Source: an uncultured Campylobacterales bacterium
GTDB taxonomy: Bacteria; Campylobacterota; Campylobacteria; Campylobacterales; Arcobacteraceae
Direction: 5' to 3'
Assembly: GCA_947503785.1 (NCBI GenBank)
Contig: CANNFB010000001.1
Span: forward strand, 124,001 to 188,000
Length of the DNA: 64,000 bases
Notes under the pieces: model-generated
The model's database searches: none
What the model was told of the DNA's origin: nothing
What the model saw: the letters and a program-made list of their open reading frames with translations, nothing else
Part shown: positions 13,200 through 25,249 of the stretch, piece by piece
How positions within the stretch are numbered: position 1 is the first letter of the stretch
Layout of the letters: each line of letters starts with the position of its first letter
Position numbers and translations under genes: made by a program

Positions 13200-13225
13200 A
13201 AGAAAAAAGCCTAAGCTTTTTTCTT
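13200..13225 (-). terminator. Terminator of the ovoA transcript
   Basis: On the minus strand an 11-base stem (AAGAAAAAAGC with GCTTTTTTCTT, 4-base loop) overlaps the ovoA stop codon and is followed by a T-run. It separates ovoA from the kinase promoter region. Confidence 0.7.
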
Positions 13226-15301
13226 CCATATTGACATTTGAGAGACTGAGTGTTGATATTTTCTATTTGTTTCTTTTATTACAAAAGGTACATCTATTGT
13301 TTCAAGTAATTCAAAATCCTTTAATTCATCTCTTAAAGTATTTAAAGTTGAAACTTCTTTATTATCTTTGATATATCCACCAAGCCAGTTTTCTTTTGGC
13401 GTGTACTCTTCAAGCCATGTATAAGGGCTTAAAAGAACTAATAATCCCTTATCATTTACTCTTGAGGGAATATCATCAATAAACTTTTTGGGATAGTATA
13501 ATCTATCTATTAAGTTTGAACAAAAAATTAAATCATATCCTGTATAGTTATCTTTTAAATTACAGGCATCACCTTGCATAAATGAAACTTTTTCTTTTAT
13601 ATCATCTAAAGCAAAGTCTTTTAATGAAACTGTTCTTTCATTAAAAATATCACCCTCTTTTTTAATATTAAAAGTTAAAGTATCATATTCTTTTAATTTA
13701 ACTCCAACATTTATAAAGTTTGCAGAAAAATCAATTCCTGTTACTTGATCAAAAGTTCTAGCTAATTCAAAAGTACTTCGCCCTACTGAACAACCTAAGT
13801 CTAAAGCTTTTTTTGTTTCAATATTTGTTAAATATGGTTTTAGTAATTCAACTGAATTAACACAAAAGTTTTTAACACCAAAGTTCTCTTCCCCATAATG
13901 AAACTCACAATACTGAGCAATTGACTCATCTGTTTCATAAACATTATTGTTTAATTTTGTTCTATATTCGTTATCTGATTTCACGTATCTAAATCCTGCA
14001 TGTTGGAAGAAATGCTTTCTAAAAGCATATCTAGATTCTCTTAAGATCTCATTTCCTAAGGAAATAAAAGATCCACCTTTCATTAAAGCATGTCTATCAT
14101 CAAATGTTGGTGTAGTAAAATCATCATAAATAGGATGTGTTTCAAAGTCATCAAATGGATACATTGGAGTTATACTCCATTGCCATACATTTCCTCTTAC
14201 ATCATAAAATTCATCAAACTTATACTTATCAACTGGAGATTGATTAAATTGTTTTAATCCGATATTTGCTTCTTTCTCGTTCGCGTTTACATAATCAAAT
14301 AATCTATAATATTCATCTTCACTTGGAAGTCTTATTTCATATCCTAATTTAGCACTTTTATATTTACAAAAGGCCTCTGCTTCATATACATTAATATCAA
14401 CAGGATAGTTTAAAGGTAGTGGAATTACTCTATTAATCTCTCGCAAGTAATATTTGCCATCTTCTTTTATCCAAAAAGGTGGATGCTTTGCTTGAGAGAA
14501 ATCTAACCACTCTTTTCCTTCTGTTGTAAATAGCTCAGGTTTATTATATCCACCTTCTTTTACAAACTCTAAAAACTCGCCATTTGATACTAAATATTTA
14601 GATGCTTTAAAATCTTTTACTGATGCTTTATGAAAAGAAAATTCATTATCCCATCCATAAGATACAGGATTAGCTCTGTCTTTTTGAATAAGAACCTCTC
14701 CACCTTTAACATCAAGTAATTCATTTTGAGGAAAGATTTCACTTTCTTCGTTTACGTACTCAAAAATTTCTTTATCAATTAATCTTTTATTATCAAGTTC
14801 GCGAAGTAAAACTGAAGATGTTTCAATGTGAATATTTTCATGCTCAATTCCCATAAGAATAATCCACATAGGAGATTCCCAGTTTATTGGCATTGTAAAT
14901 TCTATAGTATCAATTAAATCTAAAACTATTTGCTTTATAGCTAGTCTATATTCTTTTGTTTCTTCAACTGTGGGCCAAGCATAATGCTTTGATTCTAAAT
15001 CATCCCATGACATTTCATCAACACCAATTGCAAACTTAGATTCAAAATCTTTATTTACTCTATTTGGCAAGATATTTGCAAGAGTTAATTTATTTACAAA
15101 AAAAGTCGCAGTATGTCCAAAATAGAAAATCAGTGGATGTCTTAGTCTATTTGGTTGTTTGTATATACATTTTTCATCTTTTAATAGTTCAAATAGTTTT
15201 TCATCCAATTCATAAGTTTGAAGAAAATATTTCTTAATTTCTTCTCTTTTTTCTAAAACAGTACCTTGGTTTAAATTTATAGTATTTTTAATATAGTTCA
15301 A
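13211..15301 (-). CDS. ovoA: 5-histidylcysteine sulfoxide synthase / ovothiol synthase
   Basis: OvoA is an iron enzyme that joins cysteine to histidine with oxygen in the first step of ovothiol synthesis. Its fused methyltransferase is thought to methylate the imidazole nitrogen. The 696-residue protein shows the order of the family: an N-terminal DinB-like domain with the iron motif HENIHIE (HxxxHxE), a formylglycine-enzyme-like domain (about 200-450; DVRGNVWQW, MKGGSF, AFRKHFFQHAGFRYV) and a SAM methyltransferase (about 485-690; ALDLGCSVGRS). Translation starts at TTG with AAGGA upstream. No OvoB beta-lyase gene is visible nearby. Confidence 0.9.
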   Translation of the reverse strand: MNYIKNTINLNQGTVLEKREEIKKYFLQTYELDEKLFELLKDEKCIYKQPNRLRHPLIFYFGHTATFFVNKLTLANILPNRVNKDFESKFAIGVDEMSWDDLESKHYAWPTVEETKEYRLAIKQIVLDLIDTIEFTMPINWESPMWIILMGIEHENIHIETSSVLLRELDNKRLIDKEIFEYVNEESEIFPQNELLDVKGGEVLIQKDRANPVSYGWDNEFSFHKASVKDFKASKYLVSNGEFLEFVKEGGYNKPELFTTEGKEWLDFSQAKHPPFWIKEDGKYYLREINRVIPLPLNYPVDINVYEAEAFCKYKSAKLGYEIRLPSEDEYYRLFDYVNANEKEANIGLKQFNQSPVDKYKFDEFYDVRGNVWQWSITPMYPFDDFETHPIYDDFTTPTFDDRHALMKGGSFISLGNEILRESRYAFRKHFFQHAGFRYVKSDNEYRTKLNNNVYETDESIAQYCEFHYGEENFGVKNFCVNSVELLKPYLTNIETKKALDLGCSVGRSTFELARTFDQVTGIDFSANFINVGVKLKEYDTLTFNIKKEGDIFNERTVSLKDFALDDIKEKVSFMQGDACNLKDNYTGYDLIFCSNLIDRLYYPKKFIDDIPSRVNDKGLLVLLSPYTWLEEYTPKENWLGGYIKDNKEVSTLNTLRDELKDFELLETIDVPFVIKETNRKYQHSVSQMSIWKKKA

Positions 15302-17549: not shown

Positions 17550-18119
17550 CTATTTTGTTTCACTAGAAGAAAAACCTTTTTTTGCAAATTTATTTTGTAT
17601 TGGATCACTAAAAGTATAAATTCCTTCTTTTAAAGCAAAGGGATAATCTTTTAAACACTCTTTATATTTATTTACAAAAGTATCAGGATATGAAGGAAAG
17701 GAGCTTGTTAAAATGTCAACATATTTTGCAGGGATAAAGCAATTCTCATCACCTTTATTTGCTAATTTTTTTTCATTTGTAGTCATAAAAGCTGTGATAT
17801 CTGAATCTAAAGGAATATCAGCATTTGAAGCTTTAATAATAATTTGAGAATAGTTTTTTTCTCTAAGTTTTAAAGATTCAAACTCTTCATCTGTAATTTT
17901 TAAAACTACTCCAGAAGTTGAAGTATTTTGATTTTCTTTTAAATTTAAAAACACACCATTCACATTTTCTTCATCAAATCTAATACTTTCAATTGAATTC
18001 CAAACCTTTTCATAACCTTTTATACAAACAGGAATTAAATCTTCCTGTTTTAGTACTCTTTTAAAAGATTTTTGAGCACTTACAATATTAATTAAAGAGC
18101 CATAACCAAAAAGATACAT
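17550..18119 (-). CDS. Gamma-glutamylcyclotransferase-like protein
   Basis: The N-terminus MYLFGYGSLI is the substrate-loop signature of the GGCT/AIG2-like fold, in which YGSL binds the gamma-glutamyl group. Length is 189 residues. Family members convert gamma-glutamyl amines or glutathione to 5-oxoproline, but many members are uncharacterised and the substrate cannot be told here. It starts 2 bases after the stop of the RraA-like gene, so the two are cotranscribed. A thiol-metabolism role would fit with ovoA nearby, but this is only positional. Confidence 0.72.
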   Translation of the reverse strand: MYLFGYGSLINIVSAQKSFKRVLKQEDLIPVCIKGYEKVWNSIESIRFDEENVNGVFLNLKENQNTSTSGVVLKITDEEFESLKLREKNYSQIIIKASNADIPLDSDITAFMTTNEKKLANKGDENCFIPAKYVDILTSSFPSYPDTFVNKYKECLKDYPFALKEGIYTFSDPIQNKFAKKGFSSSETK

Positions 18120-18121
18120 TA

Positions 18122-18601
18122 CTATACTAACTTTTCTTTTGCTATTACAATTCCATCTAGATCAACATAAATATAATCACCTTCAACAATTTCTACATCA
18201 TCAATTTTAATTGGCACATTTATTTGTCCCTCTTGAACTGGAATATATTTTTTAGGACATGTTCCTTTTGCTACTAATCCAACAGAAAATTCTTTAGTTG
18301 TAACAGTATCTCTTACATATCCATTTACAATAATTCCTTCATATTTATTATCACTTGCAAATTTCATTAAGTTATCGCCTACAACAGCATAGTATTTCAT
18401 ATCAACATCAACGACTACAATTTTACCATCGCCTTTTTCTTCTTTTAATAATACTGCTAAATCTTTATTGTTTTTATCTAGCTTAACTGTAATTGCAGTA
18501 CCTTTAAACTTTACAATTCCACCATATGATTTAAAATCAGGCCCTAAAACTTCTGTTTTATCACTAAACTCATCGCACAAATCTGCTGTGAAAAATCCCA
18601 T
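18122..18601 (-). CDS. rraA: RraA-family protein
   Basis: The 159-residue protein matches the RraA/HMG-aldolase family along its length: TADLCDEFSDK (4-14), the middle VVGDNLMKFA and NGYVRDTVT, and the end GDYIYVDLDGIVIA. E. coli RraA inhibits RNase E. Homologues elsewhere act as 4-hydroxy-4-methyl-2-oxoglutarate/oxaloacetate aldolases, whose metal and substrate site includes the GDNL and R-D residues seen here. Campylobacterota largely lack a classical RNase E, so an aldolase role may be more likely. AAGGA precedes the ATG. First gene of the pair with the GGCT-like gene. Confidence 0.85.
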   Translation of the reverse strand: MGFFTADLCDEFSDKTEVLGPDFKSYGGIVKFKGTAITVKLDKNNKDLAVLLKEEKGDGKIVVVDVDMKYYAVVGDNLMKFASDNKYEGIIVNGYVRDTVTTKEFSVGLVAKGTCPKKYIPVQEGQINVPIKIDDVEIVEGDYIYVDLDGIVIAKEKLV

Positions 18602-20591: not shown

Positions 20592-21002
20592 ATGAAAGTA
20601 GTTACAGGAGTTGTAGGTAACGATATACACGTAGTTGCAAATAGACTAATAGATATATCATTACAAGCACGAGGATTTGAAGTATTTAATTTAGGTGTTA
20701 ATACTTATTTAGAAGAATTCTTTGATGCAGTTATAGAAACAAACGCAGATGTTTTACTTATCTCTTCACTAAATGGTGAAGCTGAGGGTTGGTGTAGAGA
20801 AGTGAAAATTTTAAAATCAAAATATGGAAATCATTTAGATAATGTTGTATTTATGATTGGTGGAAACTTGGTTGTAGGAACTGGTTCAGATGAAGATATT
20901 GTTCCTAAGTTTAAGGACTATGGTTTTGATTTAGTATTTCACCAAGTTGATTTAAATACAGGTCTTGATGCCTTAGAAGAGTACTTGAAGGAGAAGAAAT
21001 AA
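20592..21002 (+). CDS. glmS: Glutamate mutase (methylaspartate mutase), cobalamin-binding S subunit
   Basis: This is the small B12-binding subunit (136 residues) of glutamate mutase, which with GlmE rearranges L-glutamate to (2S,3S)-3-methylaspartate by a radical mechanism. (It is not glucosamine synthase, which shares the symbol.) The Rossmann-like domain has GNDIHVVANRL (9-19), with Asp11 and the axial His13 of the DxHxxG motif, then SSLNGE and GGNLVVG, which line the nucleotide tail. The motif glycine is Ala16 here. Its TAA overlaps the ATG of glmE, consistent with equal production of both subunits. Confidence 0.9.
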   Translation: MKVVTGVVGNDIHVVANRLIDISLQARGFEVFNLGVNTYLEEFFDAVIETNADVLLISSLNGEAEGWCREVKILKSKYGNHLDNVVFMIGGNLVVGTGSDEDIVPKFKDYGFDLVFHQVDLNTGLDALEEYLKEKK

Positions 21003-22369
21003 TGAGTTTACTTCAAGAAGAAAGAGAAATCATTGTTCAAAATAAATATGCAGATAACTTTGATTTTGCAGAGATTGAAGAGTTTGTAAAAAACGCTTCA
21101 AAAGATTTGTTTATTTCACATAGATTTAAAAATGCAAATAAAATGCTAGTTCAACCTCGTGGTGGTTTTCCAACTTACCAAAAACAGTATGATTTATATG
21201 AATTTTTTGTAAATGCTGATGTTGATATACTACCTTTAACTATTGATTCAAATACAAGATTAAATGATTATGCAACATCTGCAAAAATGCTTAAACTTAG
21301 TGAAGAAAATGAAGTTGATATGTTAAATGGATATCCTTTAGTAAATCATGGTTATAAAACAACTAGAAAAATGATTACTCACTTTAATAAGCCAGTATCA
21401 CTTCGTCATGGAACACCAGATGCAAGACTTCTAATAGAAACAGCAATAGCTTCTGGAATATTTGAAATAGAAGGTGGTCCAATTACTTACCTTTTACCCT
21501 ACTCTAAAAACTTCCCATTAGATAAAGCCTTTTTATACTGGAAATATGTTGAGAGAGTTTGTGCAAATTATTCAAAACTAAATGAACCAATAAATAGAGA
21601 ATCTTTTGGTCCTTTAACTGCAACACTTGTACCTCCTTGTGTAACTATTGTAATTCAATTATTAGAAATGCTTTTATCACTTGAAGAAGGTGTTAAATCC
21701 TTCTCTGTGTCTTTTTCACAAACTGGTTCTATGAATCAAGATATTGTAACTGGTGCAGTTATTAGAAAAATGGCTAAGCACTACGCAGAGGAAATTGGAT
21801 GTGGTGATGCATCAGTTCATCTTGTATATCATCAATGGATGGGAGCATTTCCAACTGATAAAAACTTTGCAGAGTGTTTAATCAATACTTCAACTGTAAT
21901 TGCTGCTATGGTTGGTGCTGATAAAATTATTACAAAAACAAGAGAAGAAGCATCTGGGATTCCTACAAAAGAAGCAAATGCTAAAACAGTTGCAAATACT
22001 CAATATACACTTAGAATGTTAAATGGGTTACCAAATATTGTGGATAAAGAAGAAGAAGAAATTCTTACAGAAGAAGTTATGAGTATTATGGAAGCTGTGT
22101 TTAACGACCCTGCTGATACATTATGGAGAAAAGTATTTAACTCTATTAAAAATGGAACTATTGATGTTCCTTTCTCTCCACATATTATAAATCATAATGA
22201 AGTAGTAACTGTACGAGATAAAAATAAAAACATTAGAATTATTAAAAAAGGTAAATTACCAATTTCTGACAGATGTTTTGAATATGAAAAAAAACAATGT
22301 GATTTAAATAAAGATGCCTCATCAATAGTAAATGACATCATCCATGATATAGGAATTATGCAATGGTAG
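21002..22369 (+). CDS. glmE: Glutamate mutase (methylaspartate mutase), catalytic E subunit
   Basis: The 455-residue protein is the TIM-barrel subunit that holds glutamate and the adenosyl part of coenzyme B12. Family hallmarks are LVQPRGGFPTYQKQYDL, LPLTIDSNTRLNDYA, SLRHGTPDARLL and the late segment TKTREEASGIPTKEAN. The Arg in RHGTPDAR binds the substrate carboxylate in the Clostridium enzyme. Length is close to the usual 480. It overlaps both neighbours by a few bases, so the set is one translational unit. No methylaspartate ammonia-lyase gene is present in the window. Confidence 0.93.
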   Translation: MSLLQEEREIIVQNKYADNFDFAEIEEFVKNASKDLFISHRFKNANKMLVQPRGGFPTYQKQYDLYEFFVNADVDILPLTIDSNTRLNDYATSAKMLKLSEENEVDMLNGYPLVNHGYKTTRKMITHFNKPVSLRHGTPDARLLIETAIASGIFEIEGGPITYLLPYSKNFPLDKAFLYWKYVERVCANYSKLNEPINRESFGPLTATLVPPCVTIVIQLLEMLLSLEEGVKSFSVSFSQTGSMNQDIVTGAVIRKMAKHYAEEIGCGDASVHLVYHQWMGAFPTDKNFAECLINTSTVIAAMVGADKIITKTREEASGIPTKEANAKTVANTQYTLRMLNGLPNIVDKEEEEILTEEVMSIMEAVFNDPADTLWRKVFNSIKNGTIDVPFSPHIINHNEVVTVRDKNKNIRIIKKGKLPISDRCFEYEKKQCDLNKDASSIVNDIIHDIGIMQW

Positions 22370-23547
22370 AAAATAAACTTTTAATCGATATAGGAAGTAC
22401 ATACTTTAAAGTTGCCACTTCTAATAATGTTGAACAACACTTTAGAGATTTTAACAAAGATATTTATAATGATTTAGTTAGTAAATGTTCAAGTACACTT
22501 GAGAACTTCAAAAAAGAAGAAATATTTATTTGTTCATCTGCAAATGGTGGATTATCTACTTTAGTAATTGGAGTAACTAACTCTTTTTCTTTAAAATATG
22601 CTACTAATATTGCATATAATTCTGGTATTAATATTATTGATACTGTTTTATATCAAGATATAGCAAAAGCTTCAGTTCCAAGTGATTTAATTGATGTTGT
22701 AATTATTGTTGGGGGAATTAATAGTGTTGATAATATCTTTAAAGAAGATTTATTCAAATACCTAGAAAATGTAAACTATTCAAATGTAGTTTTTGCAGGT
22801 TCATCTAAAGATGCTGCTTATTTAAGCTCACATATTGAGAGTCTAGTACTAATTGATAATGTAATTGATAATAAACTTCATGTAGTTGAAGAGCCTTTAA
22901 AAGAATATTTAACTAACCTTTATCAATCTGATATTATGGGGAAGGAAGATATTAAACATCTATATGACTTAACATCAAATCAGATTTACTCAACTCCATA
23001 TATTGTAAATAAAACTTTACCTTTAATTGATTCAAAATTTGCAGCTGTTAATCCATTTATCTTAATTGATATTGGAGGAGCTACAACAGATATCCATTAT
23101 TCTAAAGATTTATCTTATGATAATATAGTAACTTCAAATGAATATGATAGATTAGTATTTAAAAAACTAGGTGTTTTTAAATCTAAAGAATCATTAATTT
23201 TTGCAGCTAAAAACAATGAATTTGTATATGAATTATTAGCTCATTTAAAAGTTACTGAAAATATTTTCAATGAAGATAGTACTAAAAGTTTAAAAATCTT
23301 AATGCAACTTGCAATTTTTTTAGTTTTATATAAAGTATCAGAAGTTCATCCTTTATATATCAAACTAAAATTACACTTATTAAAATCTGTTGTATTAACA
23401 GGTGGAATTACTAAAGTATTAAGTTTTGAAGAGGTAGAAGATATTATTGCATTTTTCTATAAAAAAATATTAAATAGCGATATTTATCCTGCAATTGTTT
23501 TAGATTCAAATTATGATATTTGGACTCTTGGAATAACTCAAAAATAA
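22363..23547 (+). CDS. glmL: Glutamate mutase reactivation protein, MutL family
   Basis: This 394-residue ASKHA-fold ATPase has the phosphate-binding motifs LIDIGSTYFKVA (6-17) and LIDIGGATTDIHY in the middle, and a C-terminal VLTGGITKVLS. MutL/GlmL proteins sit between or next to glutamate mutase genes and are thought to free the enzyme of inactive cobalamin, like diol dehydratase reactivases. It overlaps glmE by 7 bases. It is shorter than typical clostridial MutL (about 460), with differences mainly in the middle. Function is by family and context, not direct proof. Confidence 0.87.
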   Translation: MVENKLLIDIGSTYFKVATSNNVEQHFRDFNKDIYNDLVSKCSSTLENFKKEEIFICSSANGGLSTLVIGVTNSFSLKYATNIAYNSGINIIDTVLYQDIAKASVPSDLIDVVIIVGGINSVDNIFKEDLFKYLENVNYSNVVFAGSSKDAAYLSSHIESLVLIDNVIDNKLHVVEEPLKEYLTNLYQSDIMGKEDIKHLYDLTSNQIYSTPYIVNKTLPLIDSKFAAVNPFILIDIGGATTDIHYSKDLSYDNIVTSNEYDRLVFKKLGVFKSKESLIFAAKNNEFVYELLAHLKVTENIFNEDSTKSLKILMQLAIFLVLYKVSEVHPLYIKLKLHLLKSVVLTGGITKVLSFEEVEDIIAFFYKKILNSDIYPAIVLDSNYDIWTLGITQK

Positions 23548-23557
23548 AGGAAATAAT

Positions 23558-25129
23558 ATGTCAATAAATTGTATAAGAACACTAATAGAAGCATCAAATA
23601 TTTCAAATCCAAATAAAGTTGCTTTAACTTTTGGACATGAAAAAATTACATATAGTGAATTATTTACTAAAGTAAACCAAATTGCTTATTATTTAAATGA
23701 GTTAAATATGCCAAGCAAAAGCAGAATTGGTATTTATTCAAATAAAGGAATAGACCAAGTTATTGCAATACTAGCTATTTTATCAACTGATTATATTTTA
23801 GTTCCATTAACAAGACTTCTAAAACCTGAGCAGATTGAATATATTATTAACGATTGTAATATTGAATGTATTATTACAGATAGAGTAAAACTTGAAGCTA
23901 TTGAAGAAATAAAATTTGCAGGTAATATTATCTCTTATGAAACTGCACATAAAGATTTAGCATCATTTGAAGAAATTTATAAATACTATAATAAACCATA
24001 TGAATGTAATATATCAGGTCATCAAAATGCAGCAATTACTTACTCATTTGGAATAAGTGGAAAACCAAAAGGTATTGTAATATCACACAGAAACTTTATA
24101 GATTCTGCACGTGTTGTATCACAGTATTTAGATTTAAAAGAAGAAGATGTAATTTCAGGTACTTTAATTTTTAATCTTGACTATGGATTAAATCAAATCT
24201 TTTGTTCTTTATATAAAAGAGCAACTTTAGCACTACATAGATTTGTTTTGCCTAATGATTTTTTTAATCATATTATTAATGATAAAGTTACAGTATTACC
24301 TATTATGCCTATTACATTAACAGATATGTTTGATGAAGAAGAGAATAGACTTCCAAGTAGCGAATTATTACAAAATGTTAGAATTATTACATCTTCAGGT
24401 GGAAATGTTACAAATAAAATGATCACTGATGTAGAAAAATACTTTGTAAGTGCAAAGTTTTATTCAATGCATGGATTAACAGAAGCCTTTAGATCTACAT
24501 ATTTAGAGCCATCTCAATTAAAAATAAGACCAGATTCAATTGGAAAAGCTATTCCTGATGTTGAGTTATATGTAATTGATGAAGAAGGTAATGAATGTGC
24601 TCCAAGAGTTGTAGGAGAGTTAATTCATAGAGGTGGATATATTTATCAAGGTTATTGGAAGGGTCCAAAAGAAACAAAAGAAAGATTTAAATCTGCTCAA
24701 ATTCTAAAAAACATTATCAATCTTGATGGCGAGTTAAATGATGAGATAGTAGTAGCAACTGGTGATTATGTTTATAAAGATGAAGAAGGTTATTTATACT
24801 TTGTTTCAAGACAAGATAATATGATTAAAACTAGAGGTTTTAGAGTAAGTCCTTATGAAATAGAATCTGTTGTTACTAAAAATATTTCTGAAATTGAACA
24901 GTGTGCAGTTTTTTCAATTGAAAATGAAGAGATTGAAGAAGAGATTGTTTTAGTATATAGTGCAAGTAGTGAATTAAGCTCAAAAGAGATTACATTTGAA
25001 TTAAAAAAACACTTAGCATCATATATGATACCTAGTAAAATAATCTACAAAAAATCACTACCCTTAATTCCATCAGATAAAAATAAGATTAATATAGATG
25101 AATTAAAAAAAGAATTAATTATTAAATAA
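23558..25129 (+). CDS. AMP-forming acyl/aminoacyl ligase of the glutamate mutase operon
   Basis: This is a 523-residue adenylate-forming enzyme. The adenylation core has HGLTEAFRSTYLEP, DSIGKAIPDVELYVID, GELIHRGGYIYQGYW and the hinge SRQDNMIKTRGFRVSPYEIE. A C-terminal Lys lies near PSDKNKINI. These segments resemble, from memory, the acyl-CoA ligases described as exosortase A-associated and other carrier-loading enzymes. The P-loop (160-172) is YSFGISGKPKG instead of the usual TSGTTGKPKG. It follows glmL by 10 bases with AAAGGA before its ATG. I infer that it activates 3-methylaspartate or a derivative; CoA or a carrier protein could be the acceptor, but no carrier gene is adjacent. Confidence 0.85.
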   Translation: MSINCIRTLIEASNISNPNKVALTFGHEKITYSELFTKVNQIAYYLNELNMPSKSRIGIYSNKGIDQVIAILAILSTDYILVPLTRLLKPEQIEYIINDCNIECIITDRVKLEAIEEIKFAGNIISYETAHKDLASFEEIYKYYNKPYECNISGHQNAAITYSFGISGKPKGIVISHRNFIDSARVVSQYLDLKEEDVISGTLIFNLDYGLNQIFCSLYKRATLALHRFVLPNDFFNHIINDKVTVLPIMPITLTDMFDEEENRLPSSELLQNVRIITSSGGNVTNKMITDVEKYFVSAKFYSMHGLTEAFRSTYLEPSQLKIRPDSIGKAIPDVELYVIDEEGNECAPRVVGELIHRGGYIYQGYWKGPKETKERFKSAQILKNIINLDGELNDEIVVATGDYVYKDEEGYLYFVSRQDNMIKTRGFRVSPYEIESVVTKNISEIEQCAVFSIENEEIEEEIVLVYSASSELSSKEITFELKKHLASYMIPSKIIYKKSLPLIPSDKNKINIDELKKELIIK

Positions 25130-25130
25130 T

Positions 25131-25160
25131 AAAAAGTATAGCAGTTTTGCAATACTTTTT
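25131..25160 (+). terminator. Terminator of the glutamate mutase operon
   Basis: AAAAAGTAT pairs with ATACTTTTT, and the stem continues inside as GCA with TGC after one mismatch, with a GTTT loop. It directly follows the ligase stop and ends in T5, closing the four-gene unit. Confidence 0.75.
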
Positions 25161-25249
25161 AGAAAGACAAATTTTATTGATTAATGTCAATTACTTCTAA
25201 TATAGAATATTATATAATTACATCAATTAAAAATAGAAGGATCAAAATT

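Follow-up and report, generated by a model that had tools for sequence, protein, structure and literature searches.

In the clostridial operon, the glutamate mutase genes GlmS and GlmE are found with GlmL and a methylaspartate ammonia-lyase, and in vicenistatin biosynthesis a glutamate mutase (VinH/VinI) is accompanied by an adenylation enzyme (VinN), a carrier protein (VinL) and a decarboxylase (VinO), of which VinN, VinO and VinL handle 3-methylaspartate (PMC11284099). A glutamate mutase pathway to 2-ketobutyrate is also listed, with a 1962 citation, in a study of isoleucine routes (PMC7476758). Here, a glutamate mutase cassette was analysed in a stretch of 64,000 nucleotides (the window, to which all window coordinates refer) from an uncultured bacterium of the Arcobacteraceae (GenBank assembly GCA_947503785.1, contig CANNFB010000001.1, positions 124,001 to 188,000). 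The analyses revealed that its four adjoining genes belong, together with an RraA-like gene, to a larger conserved cassette, and led to the tentative proposal that its main flux runs from glutamate to 2-oxobutyrate, with an ANL-superfamily ligase homologue as an accessory dedicated to the mutase. The literature searches returned no paper on these cassettes and no gene set assigned to the glutamate mutase pathway, a route that Abramsky reportedly described physiologically in E. coli in 1962. The features concerned are the following:

20592..21002, + strand: glutamate mutase S subunit, B12-binding, 136 amino acids (NF002612, 159 bits, cut-off 110)
21002..22369, + strand: glutamate mutase E subunit, 455 amino acids (PF06368, 390 bits, cut-off 26.6)
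22363..23547, + strand: MutL/GlmL-like ATPase, 394 amino acids, probable mutase reactivator (PF13941, 99 bits, cut-off 27)
23558..25129, + strand: ANL-superfamily (AMP-forming ligase) homologue, 523 amino acids (PF00501, 202 bits; motif survey)
25130..25161, + strand: terminator-like hairpin 3' of the ligase gene (RNA fold -11.1 kcal/mol, z -5.1)
18122..18601, - strand: RraA-like / class II pyruvate-aldolase-family protein, 159 amino acids (PF03737, 113 bits)

The genes from S to the ligase homologue overlap by 1 and 7 bases and are then separated by a gap of 10 bases, exactly as an earlier note on this DNA had reported for a four-gene operon closed by a terminator, and the family models and the hairpin fold agree with that description. 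RNA folding showed the hairpin to be far more stable than shuffled sequences; it was not among the sites listed by a consensus scan. Upstream of the cassette, no riboswitch or structured RNA was found in Rfam, the single match of 21 bits (gathering score 86) being taken as chance, and the promoter scan was uninformative (64 sites vs. 57 expected). Clustering of all proteins around 100 loci revealed a conserved unit of six families, namely S, E, MutL, the ligase homologue, the RraA-like protein and, in gammaproteobacteria, an AspC-type aminotransferase. Comparison of gene order in relatives, which the note had called for, confirmed that the four genes are conserved but revealed a larger unit, of which the RraA-like gene and, in gammaproteobacteria, the aminotransferase gene had been overlooked.

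Among 84,980 species genomes scanned, 215 relatives of the E subunit were returned, of which the best 80 (80-100% identity) were fetched. The RraA-like gene, encoding about 160 amino acids on the opposite strand, is a neighbour of the cassette in 66 of these 80 loci, across phyla; in the window, it is separated from S by two genes and about 2 kb. In one Aliarcobacter-type genus, the RraA-like gene lies more than 70 kb from the mutase or on another contig, and nevertheless 12 of 13 mutase-positive genomes contain it, as against none of 15 mutase-negative ones (p = 4e-7, not corrected for kinship, a value that overstates the number of independent events because the genomes are related). The best 80 relatives are from Arcobacteraceae, Sulfurimonas, Colwellia, Neptuniibacter, Amphritea, Haliea, Vibrio, betaproteobacteria and one Rhodothermales bin, which is possibly mis-assigned. 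In the tree of E subunits, Sulfurimonas and Arcobacteraceae stand apart from each other among gammaproteobacteria, and the Rhodothermales sequence groups with Granulosicoccus, the deep forks being weakly supported; the high identity between phyla and this interleaving suggest a horizontal spread of the cassette. A protein search found the E subunit in 59 of 101 Arcobacteraceae genomes, and cassettes are also present in Sulfurimonas; contrary to the earlier note, the arrangement is not unusual for the phylum. The ligase homologue was present in 56 of the 59 mutase-positive Arcobacteraceae genomes and in all four mutase-positive genomes of gammaproteobacteria, where the next-best ligases are 37% identical. 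Its occurrence in relatives lacking the mutase, which the earlier note had named as part of the evidence that would refute its proposal, was not observed (0 of 42 genomes in Arcobacteraceae and 0 of 270 in gammaproteobacteria).

By every sequence feature examined, S and E are a glutamate mutase, and conversion of glutamate to 3-methylaspartate is their likely activity. The E subunit scored 375.8 bits on TIGR01503, below the cut-off of 390.1. Alignment with the solved clostridial GlmE (6h9e) showed that R66, R100, N123, R149, E171, Y177, Y181, H291, K322, K326 and E330 are all kept, which are known substrate and cofactor sites of GlmE, numbered as in the C. cochlearium structure; the substrate arginines, Glu171, Tyr181 and the cobalamin-contacting Lys326 and Glu330 that mark a glutamate mutase are all among them. 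In the S subunit, the cobalamin motif DxHxxG reads DIHVVA, with D and H kept and the last Gly replaced by Ala throughout the family (74 sequences), and the SSL and GGN motifs are retained. The MutL-like protein reached no more than 79 bits against NF040745, the GlmL equivalog (cut-off 475); it is short and divergent from clostridial GlmL, and probably serves in reactivation of the mutase.

The cassette resembles the clostridial operon in having S, E with intact catalytic residues and an adjoining MutL-type protein, but it differs in its short and divergent MutL, in the gene order S-E-MutL-ligase and in the lack of an ammonia-lyase, and it adds the RraA-like gene, the ligase homologue and, in gammaproteobacteria, the AspC-type aminotransferase. 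A search of the whole genome with PF07476 returned no methylaspartate ammonia-lyase, in agreement with the earlier note, and because this enzyme is absent the cassette is not a methylaspartate fermentation pathway. With the vicenistatin system, it shares a mutase and a stand-alone adenylation-type protein, but it has no carrier, decarboxylase or polyketide synthase, the P-loop of its ligase is altered, and its E subunit shares only about 27-30% identity with mutases from Streptomyces plasmids. The whole genome contains a single PP-binding (carrier) protein and two group-III pyridoxal phosphate (PLP) decarboxylases, neither of them in the cassette, whose lengths are those of lysA and speA and fit diaminopimelate and arginine decarboxylase. 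It was thus correct that the operon is accompanied by neither a carrier nor a decarboxylase; since no carrier or PLP decarboxylase dedicated to the cassette was found elsewhere in the genome either, it is not a loading system of the vicenistatin type.

In the route proposed here, S and E with adenosylcobalamin would isomerise L-glutamate to 3-methylaspartate, which is a well supported step, and the MutL-like ATPase would, judging from its family, reactivate the mutase. An aspartate aminotransferase would then convert 3-methylaspartate and 2-oxoglutarate to 3-methyloxaloacetate and glutamate, an enzyme whose gene adjoins the cassette in gammaproteobacteria and whose part is presumably taken by a housekeeping enzyme in Arcobacteraceae, and the RraA-like protein would decarboxylate 3-methyloxaloacetate to 2-oxobutyrate and CO2. 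The net conversion would be that of 2-oxoglutarate to 2-oxobutyrate and CO2, leading into isoleucine or propionyl-CoA. The observations concern which genes are present, their conserved residues, and their co-localisation and co-occurrence, whereas every reaction after the mutase is inferred; the route is preferred because it is the simplest chemistry that uses the mutase, the transaminase and the aldolase/decarboxylase-family partner together.

The AspC-type aminotransferase adjoins the cassette in 31 gammaproteobacterial loci. It scored 570 bits on PRK09257, the closest matches among solved structures are E. coli AspC and variants of it, and both substrate-binding arginines are aligned; enzymes of this type transaminate four-carbon dicarboxylic amino acids. 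The RraA-like protein of the window contains the catalytic motif D-x20-R-D. HMG/CHA aldolases, structural kin of RraA, also decarboxylate oxaloacetate (PMC5065237), and the RraA-like protein is a candidate 3-methyloxaloacetate decarboxylase. The cassette may correspond to the 1962 glutamate mutase pathway listed in the isoleucine study: a mutase, an aspartate-type aminotransferase (in gammaproteobacteria) and an oxaloacetate-decarboxylase-like protein are co-localised. The intact active site of E and the lack of an ammonia-lyase in this genome also favour the route, as does a 97% complete Arcobacteraceae bin of 1.4 Mb (G030, contig C32, locus L124, 4948-8482), in which RraA, S, E and MutL occur in this order with another gene in the place of the ligase, and no ligase was found anywhere in its genome. 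The intact mutase, the missing ammonia-lyase and the conserved partners support the more general claim of the earlier note that 3-methylaspartate is used by a new route.

Several observations weigh against the 2-oxobutyrate route. The first Asp of D-x20-R-D is Glu in 59 of 67 RraA-like sequences (two rows are off-pattern). Among the cassette proteins, the RraA-like one varies most, with 21% of its alignment columns conserved at >=98%, and its best NCBIfam model is PRK09372, the RNase E activity regulator RraA, with 135.9 and 142.2 bits at a cut-off of 136. Arcobacteraceae have no aminotransferase linked to the cassette, and a search of the genome studied here for relatives of the gammaproteobacterial enzyme returned none at E 1e-20. 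A CobA-type adenosyltransferase (PF02572) is absent from this genome, in which the PduO type was not searched. The near-perfect tie between ligase and mutase is left unexplained, the ligase fitting the scheme only as an accessory. Finally, 100 of 101 Arcobacteraceae genomes contain a threonine deaminase above the cut-off, regardless of whether they have the mutase; 2-oxobutyrate would therefore already be available and the glutamate mutase route would be supplementary. On the same grounds, the idea that the route bypasses a missing threonine deaminase (ilvA) in isoleucine synthesis was rejected.

The ligase homologue belongs to the ANL superfamily, as predicted for an adenylate-forming ligase, but its P-loop departs from the family signature, and ordinary adenylation is therefore doubtful. 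Its best NCBIfam model, TIGR03098, gave 425 bits, below the cut-off of 592. In the window protein, the P-loop reads YSFGISG where the canonical sequence is YTSGSTG. All 77 cassette homologues depart from the canonical loop; nearly all have YSFG[LMIV][ST]G in contrast to YTSG[ST]TG in the family, so that Phe and a large aliphatic side chain occupy two positions at which the signature has small or hydroxylated residues. When 72 cassette ligases recognised automatically and six more assigned by locus were compared with [STG][STAG]G[ST][STEI][SG], the PROSITE-type pattern of this loop, none of them matched, whereas eight of eight other ANL proteins did. The residues of the Mg- and ribose-binding motifs are kept, and the nucleotide-site residues outside the P-loop, E309 (Glu of GLTE), D403 (Asp of TGD) and R418 (hinge-region Arg), are invariant in the 77 ligases. 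Asp208 is likewise invariant and falls, in the alignment, at the place of the alpha-amino-binding Asp in adenylation domains, and the conserved SMHGLTEAFRS block supplies an invariant Arg. The C-terminal lysine has two possible registers, K508 (65 of 77) and K510 (34 of 77), and the window protein has both; since a two-residue insertion leaves this second register, a count of 43 of 77 homologues without the catalytic lysine was withdrawn. The predicted structure matches ANL structures with a moderate predicted local distance difference test score of 68.7, falling below 50 at the P-loop, and no pocket was read from it.

The nearest outside kin of the ligase are the exosortase-A-associated TIGR03098 ligases (about 35-38% identity), which in most loci examined adjoin a TIGR03099-type PLP decarboxylase and in some lie near a small carrier protein. 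They have the pocket motifs FDYG(L/F)(N/S)Q and GLTEAFRS in common with the cassette ligase, but unlike it they keep the YTSGSTG P-loop and the NGK(I/F)D lysine, and no mutase was seen in their neighbourhood. Because the TIGR03098/TIGR03099 neighbourhood resembles the VinN/VinO/VinL arrangement, this kinship suggests that the cassette ligase descends from amino-acid-activating enzymes; it may now be an altered or repurposed adenylating enzyme acting as an accessory dedicated to the mutase.

The earlier note had instead proposed that the ligase activates 3-methylaspartate or a derivative of it. In such a scheme, the product would be passed to coenzyme A, a fatty-acid acyl carrier protein or an amine, and the RraA-like protein and the aminotransferase would dispose of or recycle the excess. 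The strict tie of the ligase to the mutase is in its favour, as are the kinship with TIGR03098 enzymes that stand beside TIGR03099 decarboxylases and small carriers, in a logic like that of VinN/VinO/VinL (PMC11284099), and the invariant Asp208, block Arg and Mg- and ribose-binding residues. We nevertheless consider this activation unlikely: the P-loop is altered in every cassette homologue and canonical in the other ANL proteins, neither register of the C-terminal lysine is strictly conserved, the DYG(L/F)(N/S)Q and EAFRS residues are common to TIGR03098 enzymes and so are no proof of specificity for 3-methylaspartate, no dedicated carrier or decarboxylase was found, and one mutase genome (G030) has no ligase. 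The claim is further weakened by the two partners that the note had missed, RraA-like and AspC-like, which point to transamination and decarboxylation. If the ligase homologue does not adenylate at all, it could serve the mutase as a partner in regulation, assembly or repair, for instance by sensing nucleotide or cofactor state; an altered P-loop next to invariant E309, D403 and R418, and the occurrence of the gene only alongside the mutase, adjoining the reactivator gene, are consistent with such a role. That role also appears unlikely, as the invariance extends to the substrate-pocket residues, which points to a small-molecule ligand, and as G030 manages without the ligase. Moreover, to our knowledge no ANL protein has a function in regulation, assembly or repair.

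That the RraA-like neighbour is a ribonuclease regulator irrelevant to the pathway, as its best model PRK09372 would have it, is improbable in view of its linkage to or co-occurrence with the mutase across phyla and of the R-D of the catalytic motif that is kept; aldolase/RraA proteins are also present in organisms without RNase E (PMC5065237). The classical alternative, an operon for methylaspartate fermentation or the methylaspartate cycle whose diverged ammonia-lyase lies elsewhere, would begin in the same way, with glutamate mutase and a MutL-type protein, and one cassette genome (G115) has a full-strength ammonia-lyase match (364 bits). It is largely refuted and very improbable, since PF07476 gave no match in the genome studied here and none of full strength in 20 of the 21 other cassette genomes, two of which exceeded the cut-off with partial matches of 28-29 bits that cover part of the domain and resemble enolase-family proteins. 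A hidden ammonia-lyase was accordingly rejected for this genome and nearly all other cassette genomes examined.

Taken together, the 2-oxobutyrate route would give candidate genes, testable in many marine bacteria, to a pathway known physiologically since 1962, and a metabolic role to an RraA-family protein, while activation by the ligase would mean a carrier-free use of 3-methylaspartate. Under either reading, glutamate mutase in these bacteria is no sign of classical fermentation. Automatic annotations that name the ligase an acyl-CoA or AMP-forming ligase are open to doubt. It is possible, though we hold it to be rather doubtful in its entirety, that this is an undescribed and widespread B12-dependent cassette which combines the genes of a 2-oxobutyrate pathway (mutase, AspC-like and RraA-like) with an ANL protein that lacks the family P-loop and has a new mutase-linked function.

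In the genome G115, Pseudomaricurvus alkylphenolicus, the ammonia-lyase gene (contig C70, 41020-41766, locus L111) occurs together with the cassette, the sole such case of 21 genomes. More distant relatives of the mutase were also seen. In a gammaproteobacterium (G135), an E homologue of 26% identity (C25, 99909-100976) and a ligase of 32% identity (C30, 5117-6655) lie on separate contigs, perhaps as a distantly related form of the cassette. On plasmid NZ_CP091425.1 of Methylobacter sp. YRD-M1 (locus L110, 6871-13589), a distant E homologue (31%) has as neighbours a B12-binding protein, an asparagine synthetase A, an EamA transporter and an aminotransferase, perhaps for a product of the 3-methylasparagine type. 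A Streptomyces sp. NBC_01003 plasmid (locus L109, 11456-20735) carries S and E with an aspartate kinase, an aspartate-semialdehyde dehydrogenase, a TauD-type dioxygenase and LeuCD-like genes, and looks like a specialised pathway for a methylaspartate-derived amino acid.

Two neighbouring genes of the window are conserved in part of the Arcobacteraceae. At 13211-15301 on the - strand, a look-alike of OvoA/EgtB-type sulfoxide synthases with a C-terminal methyltransferase domain (ovothiol-type, by eye) lies near the cassette, in a synteny conserved in eight Arcobacteraceae loci (cluster 13). The other gene is peripheral and adjoins the RraA-like gene in some Arcobacteraceae only (cluster 12, position -1, six loci), where it may link the cassette to gamma-glutamyl compounds:

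17550..18119, - strand: ChaC/gamma-glutamylcyclotransferase-like protein (PF04752, 24 bits)

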